A DNA stretch of 52,206 nt from Pseudomonadota bacterium (GTDB taxonomy: Bacteria > Desulfobacterota > Binatia > UBA9968), in NCBI GenBank assembly GCA_021324155.1, contig JAJPJQ010000015.1, forward strand, positions 1 to 52,206, given 5' to 3'. Of the stretch, positions 23,297 through 27,543 are shown one piece after another. Made by a program: the position numbers and the translations under genes. A model generated the notes under the pieces. The model was not told the origin of the DNA and did not search any database. It saw only the letters and a list, made by a program, of their open reading frames with translations. The stretch's first letter is position 1. Every line of letters begins with the position of its first letter.

Positions 23297-23503
23297 TTAC
23301 TGCACCGGATGCGTCGAATCGCGCGGGGCGAGCATGTTGGAGAGCAGCGCGCGCGCCTTGAGATCGACGCATTTGGGACAGAGCCGCAGCGCCGGCGGCA
23401 GCTTCTTGATTTGGATAAAGTCGGCGGTCGGCCAGTCCGGGCACTCTTTTTCGAAGTGCCATTCTTCAGGACGGTTGTTCGCGCAGCGAAATTGCGTTTT
23501 CAT
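23297..23503 (-). CDS. Small WHF-C-WP/CxxC putative zinc protein, member 1 (68 aa)
   Basis: ATG at 23503 with GGAGGG 4 bp upstream; 68 residues. Key positions: W15-H16-F17, C21, W24-P25, D28, C42, C45 (LCPKC). The potential ligand set H16/C21/C42/C45 has spacing H-x4-C-x20-C-x2-C, as expected for one structural zinc site. An additional C7 lies before it. The region after C45 is short and Leu/Ala-rich. It is the first of four related proteins in about 2.2 kb; the same spacing recurs exactly in the 59-residue member at 25325-25504. No named family recognised; role unknown, and small ribbon proteins of this kind often bind nucleic acid or protein. Confidence 0.75.
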   Translation of the reverse strand: MKTQFRCANNRPEEWHFEKECPDWPTADFIQIKKLPPALRLCPKCVDLKARALLSNMLAPRDSTHPVQ

Positions 23504-23705
23504 GCGTCCCTCCGTTGTCCTCAGGATAACAGCGGTGCGTATGTTAGGAACGGGGCGAACACCGTAAATCGGATACAATAATACCGGAATGCTGAGACAG
23601 CGTCCCCGGAACAACGCGCAAAGTCCTGTGAAAAATCGCAGAGGGCAGCAGCGCCGCGCGAAGCGACCGCCGGAAAATGCTCACTTCACGGCGCCTGCTG
23701 TCAGT

Positions 23706-24077
23706 TCAGTGCGTCTTCATGCGCAGCTGCTTTGCGCTACATTCGCCGCAGAGCTCGCCGCGCTGCGGACGCATCTCAATCTGCAAAAAATCACTGGTCG
23801 GCCAGCGCGAGCAGGTCTCGCAGAAATGCCACATGAAGTCGCCTTGGATCTTGCGGTAGACTGAATCGATCTGCTCTTCCCGCAGATCGTCGATGTGGTG
23901 CAGACGGTTGAGCGGCAATTGGCTCCGCTCGGGATCCTGAAGATTGGTGAAACAGTGCGGGCAGGGCGTCATCATCGGGACGATGAATACGCGCTCCAGT
24001 CCCAAGTGCCGCAAGGTAAATTTTTCCCTGCAAATATAGCAGCGGAGCGTAACTGTCCACTTCGTCCGGCTGGCCAT
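23706..24077 (-). CDS. WHF-C-WP/CxxC putative zinc protein with N-terminal zinc ribbon, member 2 (123 aa)
   Basis: The start at 24077 (MASRTKW) is chosen because WTVTLRCYIC then aligns with the paralogue at 24271; an ATG at 24116 is also possible, and neither has a strong ribosome binding site. Residues 13-42 form a zinc-ribbon-like CYIC...CPHC (C13, C16, C39, C42). Residues 83-113 carry the shared motif: W83-H84-F85, C89, W92-P93, D96, C110-x2-C113 (H-x4-C-x20-C-x2-C). The linker (48-80) is charged and helical. Two metal sites per chain are predicted. Function unknown; no catalytic motif seen. Confidence 0.7.
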   Translation of the reverse strand: MASRTKWTVTLRCYICREKFTLRHLGLERVFIVPMMTPCPHCFTNLQDPERSQLPLNRLHHIDDLREEQIDSVYRKIQGDFMWHFCETCSRWPTSDFLQIEMRPQRGELCGECSAKQLRMKTH

Positions 24078-24270
24078 ACGGGCAATATTCTGTCCTCGCC
24101 CGTGCTTAACTTCCATCGGGGGATCGCCCGAGCGAGACGGTTAAACATACCCCTCGCGCCGGGAAAGTCAAAGGCCAACTTCCGTTATGAGGCTTGAATT
24201 CGCGACGGCCGGCGCGTAAGTGTTGAAAAACCTGTCCAGAGTGTTAGTTCGAGTGCGTTCACTCGCGCTC

Positions 24271-24627
24271 ATGATTTTCGACACAACGATGTGGACGGCG
24301 GTGCTCCGCTGTCAGAGTTGCAAGTCCGAGTTTTCGGTCCACGGCGTGCCTTCGGCCGACGTCTCGTTTTTGCCGCAGAAACACGCCTGTCCAGCCTGCG
24401 GTTTCGTTCCCGCCGGCGTGCCGCCTGGTCTCTTCGGCGCCGGCCATCTCATCGTGCGGCTCGAAAAGCGGCCGTATTACCGCCGACGCTCCGACGGCGA
24501 CACTTGGCATTTTAATTTCAACTGTTCGGAGTGGCCGGCCGTCGATCTGGTCGAGCGGCGGGACGCGCCGCCCGCCGACGCAGAGCTCTGCAACGAATGC
24601 CGCGTGAGGTCCGGCTTGGATTGTTAG
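24271..24627 (+). CDS. WHF-C-WP/CxxC putative zinc protein with N-terminal zinc ribbon, member 3 (118 aa)
   Basis: The frame is open from a GTG at 24220; the ATG at 24271 (MIFDTTMWTAVLRC) is preferred because homology with member 2 begins there. No convincing ribosome binding site is seen, and the ATG at 24289 is an alternative. N-terminal ribbon: C14, C17, C40, C43 (CQSC...CPAC). C-terminal motif: W79-H80-F81, C85, W88-P89, D92, C107-x2-C110, with a 21-residue spacer rather than 20. It is divergent from member 2, about 190 bp away, making a head-to-head paralogue pair. Not assigned to any family I know. Confidence 0.7.
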   Translation: MIFDTTMWTAVLRCQSCKSEFSVHGVPSADVSFLPQKHACPACGFVPAGVPPGLFGAGHLIVRLEKRPYYRRRSDGDTWHFNFNCSEWPAVDLVERRDAPPADAELCNECRVRSGLDC

Positions 24628-24681
24628 GATAGCGCGAGGATAGAGTTTCTGATGACTTTCGCCGTTAGCGGCGGATCGCCT

Positions 24682-25104
24682 TTAGCCTGCGTGCGCGCGT
24701 TTGCGCCGCCTGAGCGCCTCGGCGCGCCGCGCCGGGAGGTGCGGACGGATCGGCCTTTTGCCGGCGCGTGCGGCGCCGACCGCCTTGAGCGCGGCGCGGC
24801 AAAGCTCGGCGGGCGGGGCCCATTCGGCGGGGACGCCCTTCACGTGGGACGACTTTTGCAGCTCCTTGGAAAATTTGCCGGCGCGGCCGAGAGCTTCCAG
24901 GCGCGCGGCGATCGCCGCAGCCTCGCGCGGCTCTGTGGAATAAGGCGGCACGCGCGCGTCTCGGAACCGACCGAGCTTATCGGGTTTCCTGCCGCGGTAG
25001 CCGGCTCCGCCGCTCTCGCGCCGGACATCCTTCCAACCCATCACAGCCTCGGCGACGAGCGCGTCGAGCTCCGGTCCCGGCTTCGGGTCTTCCACAGCGG
25101 CCAT
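24682..25104 (-). CDS. Phage ABA-sandwich-like domain protein, 140 aa
   Basis: Start at 25104 (MAAVEDPKPGPELDALVAEA). The segment ELDALVAEAVMGWKDV followed by a spacer, then VPPYSTEPREAAAIAARLE, matches the pattern of the small phage ABA-sandwich domain (AEKVMGW...PxYSTDxxAAxxV). The remaining C-terminal half is Ala/Arg/Lys-rich with PPAELCRAALKAV and ends in a strongly basic tail (RRAEALRRRKRAHAG) that could contact nucleic acid. The family is common in prophages and of unknown function. It is convergent with member 3 and sits between members 3 and 4 of the small zinc-motif set. There are no other phage genes nearby. Confidence 0.6.
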   Translation of the reverse strand: MAAVEDPKPGPELDALVAEAVMGWKDVRRESGGAGYRGRKPDKLGRFRDARVPPYSTEPREAAAIAARLEALGRAGKFSKELQKSSHVKGVPAEWAPPAELCRAALKAVGAARAGKRPIRPHLPARRAEALRRRKRAHAG

Positions 25105-25324
25105 GGATGGATCATAGCCGATTCGCACGCGCGGCGCGAGGGCGTCTCGTCAGCTGTTCGTGACGCAGGACGAGAAGTTCTTTTCCTGACAGGTCGATGA
25201 TGCGGTGAAGTCGGCCGTCGTCCGCTAGGCGCGGCTGCGCGCGCCGTAGTAGATGCAGCGCATAACCGGTGCGGCTTGCGCAAGGTCGTCGAGCGGTACA
25301 AATCCGAGTAATCGAATTATCTCC

Positions 25325-25504
25325 CTACATCCGCTCGCCTTTCACAGGCTTCTCCGGCTGCAGTTCCAAGCACTCTGCGCAGAGGTCCTCCGCATCGGGC
25401 GTCTCCGACTGCTCTAAATAATTGACCTCCGGCCAGTCCGGGCATTCGGGATGGAAGTGCCACTCGTCGAGCCGGTCGATGCTGCGTCGATACTTAACCG
25501 GCAT
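25325..25504 (-). CDS. Small WHF-C-WP/CxxC putative zinc protein, member 4 (59 aa)
   Basis: A short gene easily missed: ATG at 25504 with AGGAG 7 bp upstream, 59 residues. It reads MPVKYRRSIDRLDEWHFHPE, then C21-P-D-W24-P25, N28-Y, and C42-A-E-C45 in an acidic stretch, ending KPVKGERM. The positions W15, H16, F17, C21, W24, P25, C42 and C45 are identical in number to those of member 1, so the H-x4-C-x20-C-x2-C pattern is exactly kept. It precedes nothing obvious; the histidine-kinase gene lies downstream on the same strand 130 bp away. Between it and the ABA-sandwich gene (25105-25324) there is no supported gene. Confidence 0.75.
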   Translation of the reverse strand: MPVKYRRSIDRLDEWHFHPECPDWPEVNYLEQSETPDAEDLCAECLELQPEKPVKGERM

Positions 25505-25633: not shown

Positions 25634-27349
25634 TCAGCGCGTGGCCATGATCGCGTCGATCTTCGCGACTAATTCTTCCGGCCGGTAAGGTTTTTTGAGG
25701 ATGTCGGCCGTGGGCGTATTCTCGATCTCAGCTTTGATTGCCCCCTCGATGTAGCCGCTGGCGAACACGACCTTGAGCTTCGGGTCGGCGCATTGCATCG
25801 CGCGAAAGCTCTCCCACCCGGATAGCTTCGGCAAACCGAGATCGAGCACGGCCATGTCGATACCGCTTCGGCTGCGGTGGAGTTCGAGCGCCTCGGCGCC
25901 GTCGCGCGCGGTCAGCACTTCATAGCCGGCCGAACGAAGAAAGCGTTCCATCAGACGCAGTTGGTTCTCCTCGTCGTCGGCGAGGAGAATCGTCGCGCGT
26001 CGTCGCGGCGCGACGACGGCAGTCTGTTTATCGCTGTCGGCGTGTTCCTCTACAGCTTCAGCGCCCCGCTCGGGGAGGTAGATCCGGAAGATCGTGCCTT
26101 TGCCGCGCTCGCTCTCGACGTCGATGAATCCGGCGTGGTCTTTGACGATGCCGTATACGACTGCCAGTCCCAGCCCCGATCCTTCACCCGCTGGCTTCGT
26201 CGTGAAGAAAGGTTCGAAGACGCGCTCCAGGGTGCCGTCTTCGATGCCGCGGCCGTTGTCGGCGACCGAGATCCACAGGTAATTGTCATAGACCGCGTCG
26301 GAGAAGCGCGCCCTAAGCGCGCCGCCGGCAATTCTTCCCGACGCGAGCTCGATTGTACCGTCGCCGTTCATCGCGTCGCGGGCGTTCACGCAAAGATTCA
26401 AAATCGCCTGGTTAAGACGGTTGGCGTCGACGCCTATGCGCGGCAGCGCGGGATCGAGGCGAAGGACGATGTCGATCGTTTTCGGAAAGCTTCCGTGAAG
26501 CAGGGAGGCATGATTTTCGAGCAGTTTGTTCACATCCGCGGGCTGGAAGCTGAGGGGCGCCTTGCGCCCGACCGCGAGCAGCTGCTGGACAACGTGCGCG
26601 CCGCGCTCCACAGTATCCTTTATCACTTTCACCGCGTCGGCGACGCGCCCCGCGTCGCGCTCAGCGGAAATCACCGCCGCGTATCCCAGAATGATATTCA
26701 AAATATTGTTGAAGTCGTGCGCGATGCCTCCGGCGAGCGTTCCAATGCTCTCCATCTTCTGCGCCTGACGCAGCTGCGCTTCGAGAACCTTCTGCTGCTC
26801 GACCTCGCGTAAGAGCGCCGCTCTCGCGTGCTCGAGATCGGCGGTACGCGCGCGCACGCGCTCCTCGAGATCCTGGTTGAGCTGGGCGATGGCTGTGGTC
26901 GCCTGCTGGAGCGCGGCTTCAATTTCTTTACGCCGCGTGATGTCGCGCGCTATCTTCGACGCGCCGATGACGCGTCCCGTCGCGTCCATGATCGGCGAGA
27001 TGGTTAGCGACACGTCGAGGCGGCGGCCGTCCTTGGCTACGCGGACCGTCTCGAAGTGGTCGACGCGCTCGCCGCGTCGTAGGCTTGCGAGAATTGCCGT
27101 CTCTTCCTCGATCAGCTCGGGAGGGATGATGCGCGTGATCGACTGCCCGATCATCTCAGCGGCCGTGTAGCCGAAAAGACGCTCGGCGCCGGCGTTCCAG
27201 CTCCGAACGATGCTTTCAAGATTCTTGCTGACGATCGCGTCGTCCGAAGAATCGACGATGGCGGCCAGCCACGCGCGTGTCTCTTCCGGCGTGAGCGCCG
27301 TAATGGCGGATAGTATCGAAGGCGGAGTTTCTTTGAGCGGATCTCTCAT
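25634..27349 (-). CDS. PAS-containing hybrid histidine kinase with C-terminal receiver
   Basis: A 571-residue cytoplasmic sensor kinase from the ATG at 27349 (a TTG 12 bp earlier is in frame). PAS domain, residues ~24-140 (DSSDDAIVSKNLESIVRSWN, GASKIARDITRRK); coiled-coil linker ~141-195; HisKA with phospho-acceptor H211 in GTLAGGIAHDFNNIL; HATPase with N-box LNLCVNARDAM, DNGRGI and GSGLGLAVVYGIV; receiver ~445-571 with ILLADDEENQ, phospho-acceptor D~503 in VLDLGLP and the conserved KKPY lysine. There are no membrane segments. No separate response regulator is adjacent; the divergent MEDS-domain gene is the natural partner. The PAS ligand is unknown. Confidence 0.93.
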   Translation of the reverse strand: MRDPLKETPPSILSAITALTPEETRAWLAAIVDSSDDAIVSKNLESIVRSWNAGAERLFGYTAAEMIGQSITRIIPPELIEEETAILASLRRGERVDHFETVRVAKDGRRLDVSLTISPIMDATGRVIGASKIARDITRRKEIEAALQQATTAIAQLNQDLEERVRARTADLEHARAALLREVEQQKVLEAQLRQAQKMESIGTLAGGIAHDFNNILNIILGYAAVISAERDAGRVADAVKVIKDTVERGAHVVQQLLAVGRKAPLSFQPADVNKLLENHASLLHGSFPKTIDIVLRLDPALPRIGVDANRLNQAILNLCVNARDAMNGDGTIELASGRIAGGALRARFSDAVYDNYLWISVADNGRGIEDGTLERVFEPFFTTKPAGEGSGLGLAVVYGIVKDHAGFIDVESERGKGTIFRIYLPERGAEAVEEHADSDKQTAVVAPRRRATILLADDEENQLRLMERFLRSAGYEVLTARDGAEALELHRSRSGIDMAVLDLGLPKLSGWESFRAMQCADPKLKVVFASGYIEGAIKAEIENTPTADILKKPYRPEELVAKIDAIMATR

Positions 27350-27543
27350 AGGTAGAAACAAAAACCTTCCCCTAATCTTCGACTTAATTCAACAGGAGGC
27401 TTTCCCGACCAAAATTAAGGCAAATACCTGGTTGCAGCGCAGCGAATCAGGGAAACTAGGTATTGACACGATGGCCGCCGTAGAAATAAAGAGCATTTAA
27501 AAAGCTGGATATATTATTGATTTTCTAACGATTTTTACTGATT

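Follow-up and report, generated by a model that had tools for sequence, protein, structure and literature searches.

What are the four small proteins encoded close together on contig JAJPJQ010000015.1, and why do they share a pattern of Trp, His and Cys residues? The window analysed here is the whole 52,206-nucleotide stretch of that contig (positions 1 to 52,206, forward strand) from a Pseudomonadota bacterium (GTDB lineage Bacteria; Desulfobacterota; Binatia; UBA9968; assembly GCA_021324155.1). Between positions 23,297 and 25,504 it carries four open reading frames (ORFs), P0001 to P0004, of 68, 123, 118 and 59 residues. We refer to the C-terminal domain of these proteins as WHF and to the N-terminal ribbon of P0002 and P0003 as RIB. 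WHF is a family with patchy spread across the domains of life; it is amplified in this genome, is modular, and in some relatives is fused to receiver (REC) domains. The initial annotation had suggested nucleic-acid binding, stress or conflict as possible roles; no defence model matches WHF convincingly, and the data point instead to carriage on phage-like contigs and a link to response regulators, both new relative to that annotation. Our preferred explanation, which we would put somewhat short of an even chance, is that WHF may be a mobile, zinc-stabilised binding adaptor that was captured and amplified here and is used in regulation, partly with REC proteins. The binding and regulatory role itself we infer, and hold tentatively.

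A family of small zinc-type domains

The motif that the initial annotation had claimed for the four ORFs (WHF-x3-C-x2-WP followed by L-C-x2-C) is present in all of them, at the positions given there. The Cys spacing, which had been described as 20 or 21 residues, is C-x20-C in three members and C-x21-C in the 118-residue member, and W15, H16, F17, C21, W24, P25, C42 and C45 coincide between the 68- and 59-residue members. The additional CxxC...CPxC ribbon of the two longer proteins lies N-terminal to WHF. Residues invariant across the four-sequence alignment are M1, W, H, F, C, W, P, P, L, C and C.

A hidden Markov model (HMM) was built from 17 WHF domains, all taken from outside this genome and its family. 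Twelve come from IMG/VR contigs and three from plasmids of Thermus and Halosolutus; an Aenigmatarchaeota and a Gammaproteobacteria metagenome-assembled genome (MAG) contributed one each. The HMM was run against the six-frame translation of the window (945 stop-to-stop frames of at least 30 residues) and of the reversed window (1117 frames). All four ORFs were recovered (P0002 at E 4.2e-19, P0003 at 1.4e-15, P0004 at 1.6e-11 and P0001 at 8.7e-7), the next-best frame of the window having E 1 and the best frame of the reversed window E 0.34; the motif is thus not a product of chance. With a model that includes P0001, this protein matched at E 7.2e-19. P0002 is 58% identical to a paralogue on contig C45. 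The nonsynonymous and synonymous divergences of this pair, the only one measured, are dN 0.36 and dS 1.60 (dN/dS about 0.22; NG86 method, 118 codons), which points to purifying selection on the two genes.

The canonical WHF domain has about 50 residues (shortened consensus of alignment A10: YRR..G.DTWHFC.NCSNWPT.DY.E...KPT.GELCNEC..K...G.C). The 41 rows of alignment A6 had been picked by a pattern demanding WH and Cys, so that invariance there is partly by construction; for this reason the ligands were recounted in a pattern-free HMM search (E up to 0.001) of loci from this genome, its relatives and three distant genomes, with a profile that itself derives from rows chosen by the WH/Cys pattern. 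The 55 matches represent 53 distinct places, two having been counted twice. Where the position was covered, W and H were each kept in 50 of 50 places and each of the three Cys in 51 of 51. One core Cys is missing from a viral-contig member (L066). The zinc site is therefore likely to consist of the His and the three Cys, as had been proposed. The motif as first described holds for this core but leaves out two further Cys (WHxC-x2-C, and one near the C-terminus), which most members have: among 57 non-redundant domains both are present in 40, only one or the other in 2 and 2, and neither in 13 (Fisher 4e-9, the rows being related and not independent). This count omits three real members with neither Cys (two in L014, one in L042) and two with both (L084 and L066). 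The simplest reading is that the two additional Cys form a separate, optional pair; in the window, the WHxC Cys is absent from three of the four members, and so is the C-terminal one.

An AlphaFold2 model of a canonical member (predicted local distance difference test score, pLDDT, 93.3; predicted template modelling score 0.71) places strands at residues 4-7, 12-14 and 27-30 and a helix at 41-49. The predicted layout is a beta hairpin, an H-x4-C knuckle, a beta strand, and the CxxC at the start of the helix. The model of P0002 has a mean pLDDT of 82, with ten-residue blocks at 89-97 over residues 71 to 120.

No named family for WHF was found in the libraries scanned, in line with the initial annotation. 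Nothing was found above cut-off in Pfam for the four window proteins and for sets of 13 and 8 WHF domains, or in NCBIfam for the window proteins and 41 WHF domains. The zinc-finger models of NCBIfam gave no match to any of these 41, even with E allowed up to 1; weak, subthreshold NCBIfam matches of the window proteins are located in the RIB part. Neither PHROGs (20 rows, best E 0.0021) nor PADLOC (best E 0.0023, one model, 3 of 20 rows) gave a convincing match. WHF is thus a family without a curated model in Pfam, NCBIfam, PHROGs and PADLOC, which may have unnamed clusters elsewhere. A PDB sequence search with WHF alignment A3 returned no match, the exact WHF motif strings were found in none of the papers searched, and the match that alignment A6 gave in the PDB (a mating-factor chain, E 0.027) covers 14 residues only and was taken as chance.

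Spread, amplification and the link to REC proteins

Relatives of WHF were found in the Aenigmatarchaeota and Gammaproteobacteria MAGs and in a Deltaproteobacteria MAG, whose locus (L045) appears to be the contig of relative G019, the protein being the same. WHF was also found in 18 IMG/VR loci (search with one alignment) and on plasmids of two Thermus species and one haloarchaeon (3 of 72,556 plasmid records); the PLSDB gene table, which is incomplete, lists no gene under the match in these three records. Within the phylum of our bacterium, 12 of 247 genomes carry WHF, this one included. The corresponding numbers are 3 of 398 in the phylum of locus L044 (seed included) and 1 of 145 in that of L043 (the seed itself). 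Among 57 other relatives, 11 have WHF (E up to 0.001), in one to four copies each. Since such a patchy distribution fits horizontal transfer, WHF would appear to have spread on plasmids and, probably, on phages, a direction of spread that we infer.

In the genome studied here WHF matches 16 times at E up to 2.7e-9, and contigs C33 and C34 each end in a further, incomplete match; RIB matches 26 times at E up to 0.001. The merged set comprises 36 genes: 8 encode RIB and WHF together, 10 WHF and 18 RIB. These genes are clustered: 22 pairs lie no more than 5 kb apart, whereas random placement along a single line of genome length leads one to expect 1.35 and gave at most 9 in 5000 trials. The initial annotation had suggested a local, expanding paralogue array. 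Expansion is borne out; the set is genome-wide rather than local, and it has relatives elsewhere. In 23 relatives the best RIB match had E 5.2e-5, and all six matches lay in ORFs of at least 280 codons; the RIB model was built from copies of this genome and may miss distant relatives. The WHF alignment has too few columns for a good tree: 10 of 54 inner branches were well supported, P0001, P0004 and some others were left out, and the supported branches neither show nor exclude a single origin of the copies in this genome.

The link to two-component systems was found in relatives. One locus (L135) encodes a complete WHF-REC fusion (REC at E 1.4e-24); a second fusion (L138), identified by reading, runs into the contig end; and in two further loci (L141 and L142; Pfam was run on L141) a REC gene follows WHF by 18 nucleotides. 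These loci, from relatives G011, G017 and G021, make up 4 of the 19 WHF places in 11 relatives. In our bacterium, a RIB+WHF gene and a RIB gene on contig C13 (L114) are each followed on the same strand by a REC gene, 15 and 6 nucleotides on, and P0004 comes after the gene of a hybrid histidine kinase that itself includes a REC domain.

Taken together, these data would be consistent with the following scheme. WHF would move horizontally on plasmids and probably on phages. The bacterium would have captured WHF and joined it to RIB, and both modules would then have multiplied until 36 genes carried no fewer than 16 WHF and 26 RIB copies between them. WHF may be a compact, non-catalytic domain, held together by zinc, whose surface binds protein or nucleic acid; a lack of catalytic residues is suggested because the domain is tiny, is modular (alone, with RIB or with REC), and varies in sequence except at the ligand core and in the Trp/Pro pattern. 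It would be used in regulation, at least partly as a partner of, or attachment to, two-component REC proteins.

Several observations weigh against this scheme. All four REC-linked loci come from one genus (g12), whose seven rows cluster together in the tree (support 81/96), and three of those seven rows have no REC gene beside WHF. In our bacterium 3 of 36 genes lie close to a REC gene, which is marginal statistically (P about 0.046 under a rough model), and two of the three sit on one contig, C13. Other WHF genes adjoin a different small gene, KVCG (see below), a cobO gene (in f49 genomes) or unrelated genes.

Phage-like carriage, the KVCG partner and other explanations

Many phage-like contigs have, tail-to-tail with WHF, an oppositely oriented gene that we call KVCG (motif in alignment A11: QxCKVCGxxDKFDF...W..VVP...VVCLxCFDxF...LYFAG). 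KVCG has no Pfam match above cut-off; it is a second unnamed family of small zinc-type proteins, which also occurs without WHF. KVCG adjoins WHF in 12 of the 18 viral loci found via WHF, in one of them beside a partial WHF, and is missing from the other 6. Conversely, the 23 viral loci found via KVCG include 12 with an intact WHF (gap -4 to +7 nucleotides), 2 with the C-terminal end only and 9 with none (L179 and L182 among these being judged from the ORF list, which has no WHF there). Once near-identical contigs are removed, 8 distinct intact pairs remain, with gaps of -4 (four pairs), 0 (two pairs), 6 and 7 nucleotides. Relative G008 also has a pair overlapping by 4 nucleotides; in relative G012 the WHF frame is apparently broken halfway. 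Terminase genes near WHF were confirmed in the four IMG/VR contigs checked, two of which also have a portal gene; WHF runs opposite to the terminase genes, and one of the four contigs (L064) is without KVCG. In L067 an IS1595 transposase gene lies about 0.6 kb from WHF.

The main alternative to the binding adaptor starts from these pairs. WHF and KVCG could form a phage-host conflict cassette, that is, a moron-type accessory unit of two genes by which a phage modifies its host or counters either a defence or a competing phage, with the chromosomal copies captured and still in conflict use. The tight, partly overlapping pairing, the nearby terminase and portal genes, the patchy distribution and the sharp expansion in one genome would all suit this explanation, for which the phage link is based on IMG/VR contigs. 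We nevertheless consider it unlikely. PADLOC gave no convincing match for KVCG (best E 0.0024, 1 of 10 KVCG rows), as for WHF; none of 50,697 phage records was hit by tblastn when two WHF domains served as queries; and, as counted above, either gene often occurs in viral loci without the other. Toxin-antitoxin pairs usually consist of two co-directional genes in one operon, a layout that the tail-to-tail WHF and KVCG genes on opposite strands do not have. KVCG is found in 4 of 58 relatives, this genome included (one match weak), and in 1 of 247 genomes of the phylum, again this one, where the single copy (on C36) has no WHF beside it; the WHF copies of our bacterium are therefore without this partner, and chromosomal WHF appears to be mostly so.

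A broader conjecture would combine carriage and regulation: WHF and KVCG as an undescribed phage-carried cassette of two interlocked small zinc proteins, through which host regulation is rewired and one half of which was captured here, fused to a ribbon, coupled to phospho-relays and amplified to about 36 regulators. We regard this as speculative and improbable as a whole.

It is also conceivable, but we think distinctly improbable, that small mobile genes duplicate selfishly or neutrally here, without a host function. Contigs C33 and C34 end, with their last bases (L124 and L127), inside an identical WHF 3' end beside a RIB gene, which reads as an assembly break at a repeated copy; because both end in the same sequence, the true copy number may be higher. 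One of the 16 matches, a RIB+WHF copy (C52:13058-13366), has an in-frame TAG and is possibly a pseudogene, and on a viral contig (L175:4222-4437) the C-terminal end of WHF is fused in frame to the start of an apparent IS1595-type transposase. Against neutral duplication stand the low dN/dS of the P0002/C45 pair and the 15 of 16 full copies that have no internal stop, all keeping the His and Cys positions that they cover.

Structural comparison raised the possibility that WHF is a degenerate domain of the Ada-N type, with a role in sensing or repairing methylated phosphates in DNA. For the canonical model, the best of five PDB matches (E up to 10) was 1zgw, the DNA-bound N-terminal zinc domain of E. 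coli Ada (TM-score 0.48, root mean square deviation 3.0 over 49 columns), at E 4.4 and probability 0.14 in Foldseek. It was also the only one of nine chains with Z of 2 or more (Z 2.8, deviation 3.2, 50 residues), a Z within the range of common arrangements. The Ada N-terminal domain (PF02805) and WHF are weakly similar in arrangement, with, by our reading, a similar order of strand, knuckle, strand and CxxC. On the other hand, even with E allowed up to 10, PF02805 matched none of the four window proteins and none of the sets of 13 and 8 WHF domains. The relatives gave 31 PF02805 matches, of which 26 were extracted and two of these left out because of a wrong reading frame; profile-profile comparison with the remaining 24 Ada-type domains gave probabilities of 0.1-0.3%, against 0.1-0.2% for reversed controls. 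The Ada-type domains of the relatives have C-x3-C...C-x2-C, whereas WHF has H-x4-C (or C-x2-C)...C-x2-C and lacks the C-x3-C, the first Cys of which is the nucleophile in Ada. Kinship to Ada was dropped as a family claim, given a profile comparison no better than the reversed controls, and we judge an Ada-like function very unlikely. For P0002, Foldseek gave 229 fold matches (best E 0.4), none convincing; the best Z, 4.4, falls mostly on residues 1-72, and these matches were not used.

As to the chromosomal neighbours, in the four WHF-positive f49 genomes, which represent three genera, WHF shares a strand with a cobO-type adenosyltransferase gene and lies 12 to 103 nucleotides downstream of it (L101-L104; assigned by reading, with Pfam run on one of the four). 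By reading, it also stands beside the tig-clpP-clpX-lon region in three f80 genomes and, elsewhere, next to an ars-type locus. Metal or cofactor handling by WHF, as a zinc or cobalt buffer or a helper of cobalamin synthesis, is suggested by the cobO neighbourhood and the richness in Cys, and is equally hard to credit, the cobO link being confined to f49, the other neighbours (including the REC genes) differing, and the ligands being few for a buffer.

The features of the cluster and its surroundings are listed in the table. P0004 starts 129 nucleotides downstream of the hybrid histidine kinase gene, on the same strand. The ORF between P0003 and P0004 had no Pfam match at E 0.001. The inverted repeat is likely to be a bidirectional terminator common to the amidohydrolase gene and P0001; it is not among the listings of the terminator scan.

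Table. Coordinates of the WHF cluster, its neighbours in the window and KVCG examples from other contigs
Feature	Position	Strand	Basis
Inverted repeat, perfect, 23+23 nucleotides, between convergent amidohydrolase gene and P0001	23252..23297		read directly
P0001, WHF-only, 68 residues	23297..23503	-	motif WHF-x3-C-x2-WP...L-C-x2-C
P0002, RIB+WHF two-module, 123 residues	23706..24077	-	ORF and profile match
WHF module of P0002	23712..23864 (second model: 23715-23861)	-	E 1.1e-20; 1.4e-22 (both profiles include P0002 itself)
RIB, N-terminal zinc-ribbon module of P0002, CxxC...CPxC	23880..24077	-	profile match
P0003, RIB+WHF two-module, 118 residues	24271..24627	+	ORF and profile match
ORF of 148 residues between P0003 and P0004	24682..25128	-	ORF list
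P0004, WHF-only, 59 residues	25325..25504	-	ORF and profile match
Hybrid histidine kinase, PAS-HisKA-HATPase-REC	25634..27361	-	Pfam
KVCG examples in phage-like contigs	L057:5153-5467, L060:5153-5491, L067:4198-4509, others

Comparison with known small zinc proteins

Little is understood about small zinc proteins, and annotation easily overlooks them. The WHF-REC fusion and the WHF/KVCG pair offer entry points to the function of such proteins. RIB shares the CxxC...CPxC pattern with the zinc ribbons TIGR04104, DZR and HypA, to which it has weak, subthreshold matches; every one of these is under the curated cut-offs, and among 24 genomes, searched with the model made from its own copies, RIB is amplified only in this one. 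The nearest Pfam match of KVCG is the HEWD domain (PF20576), which 4 of 10 members hit (best E 0.0026), under the curated cut-off (17.1 versus 27 bits for the first member).

The closest parallel in kind is provided by the one-domain zinc-finger micro-proteins of Haloferax volcanii, which are reported to be likewise very small, have one zinc-type domain and occur many to a genome (PMC6562870). Conditional phenotypes are described there for 12 of 16 deletion mutants of these micro-proteins. The Haloferax micro-proteins carry C(P)XCG, according to a further paper (PMC10716476), whereas WHF has WH-x4-C-x2-WP and LCxEC. WHF is thus similar in kind to the Haloferax micro-proteins but differs in its motif and in its carriage on mobile elements.

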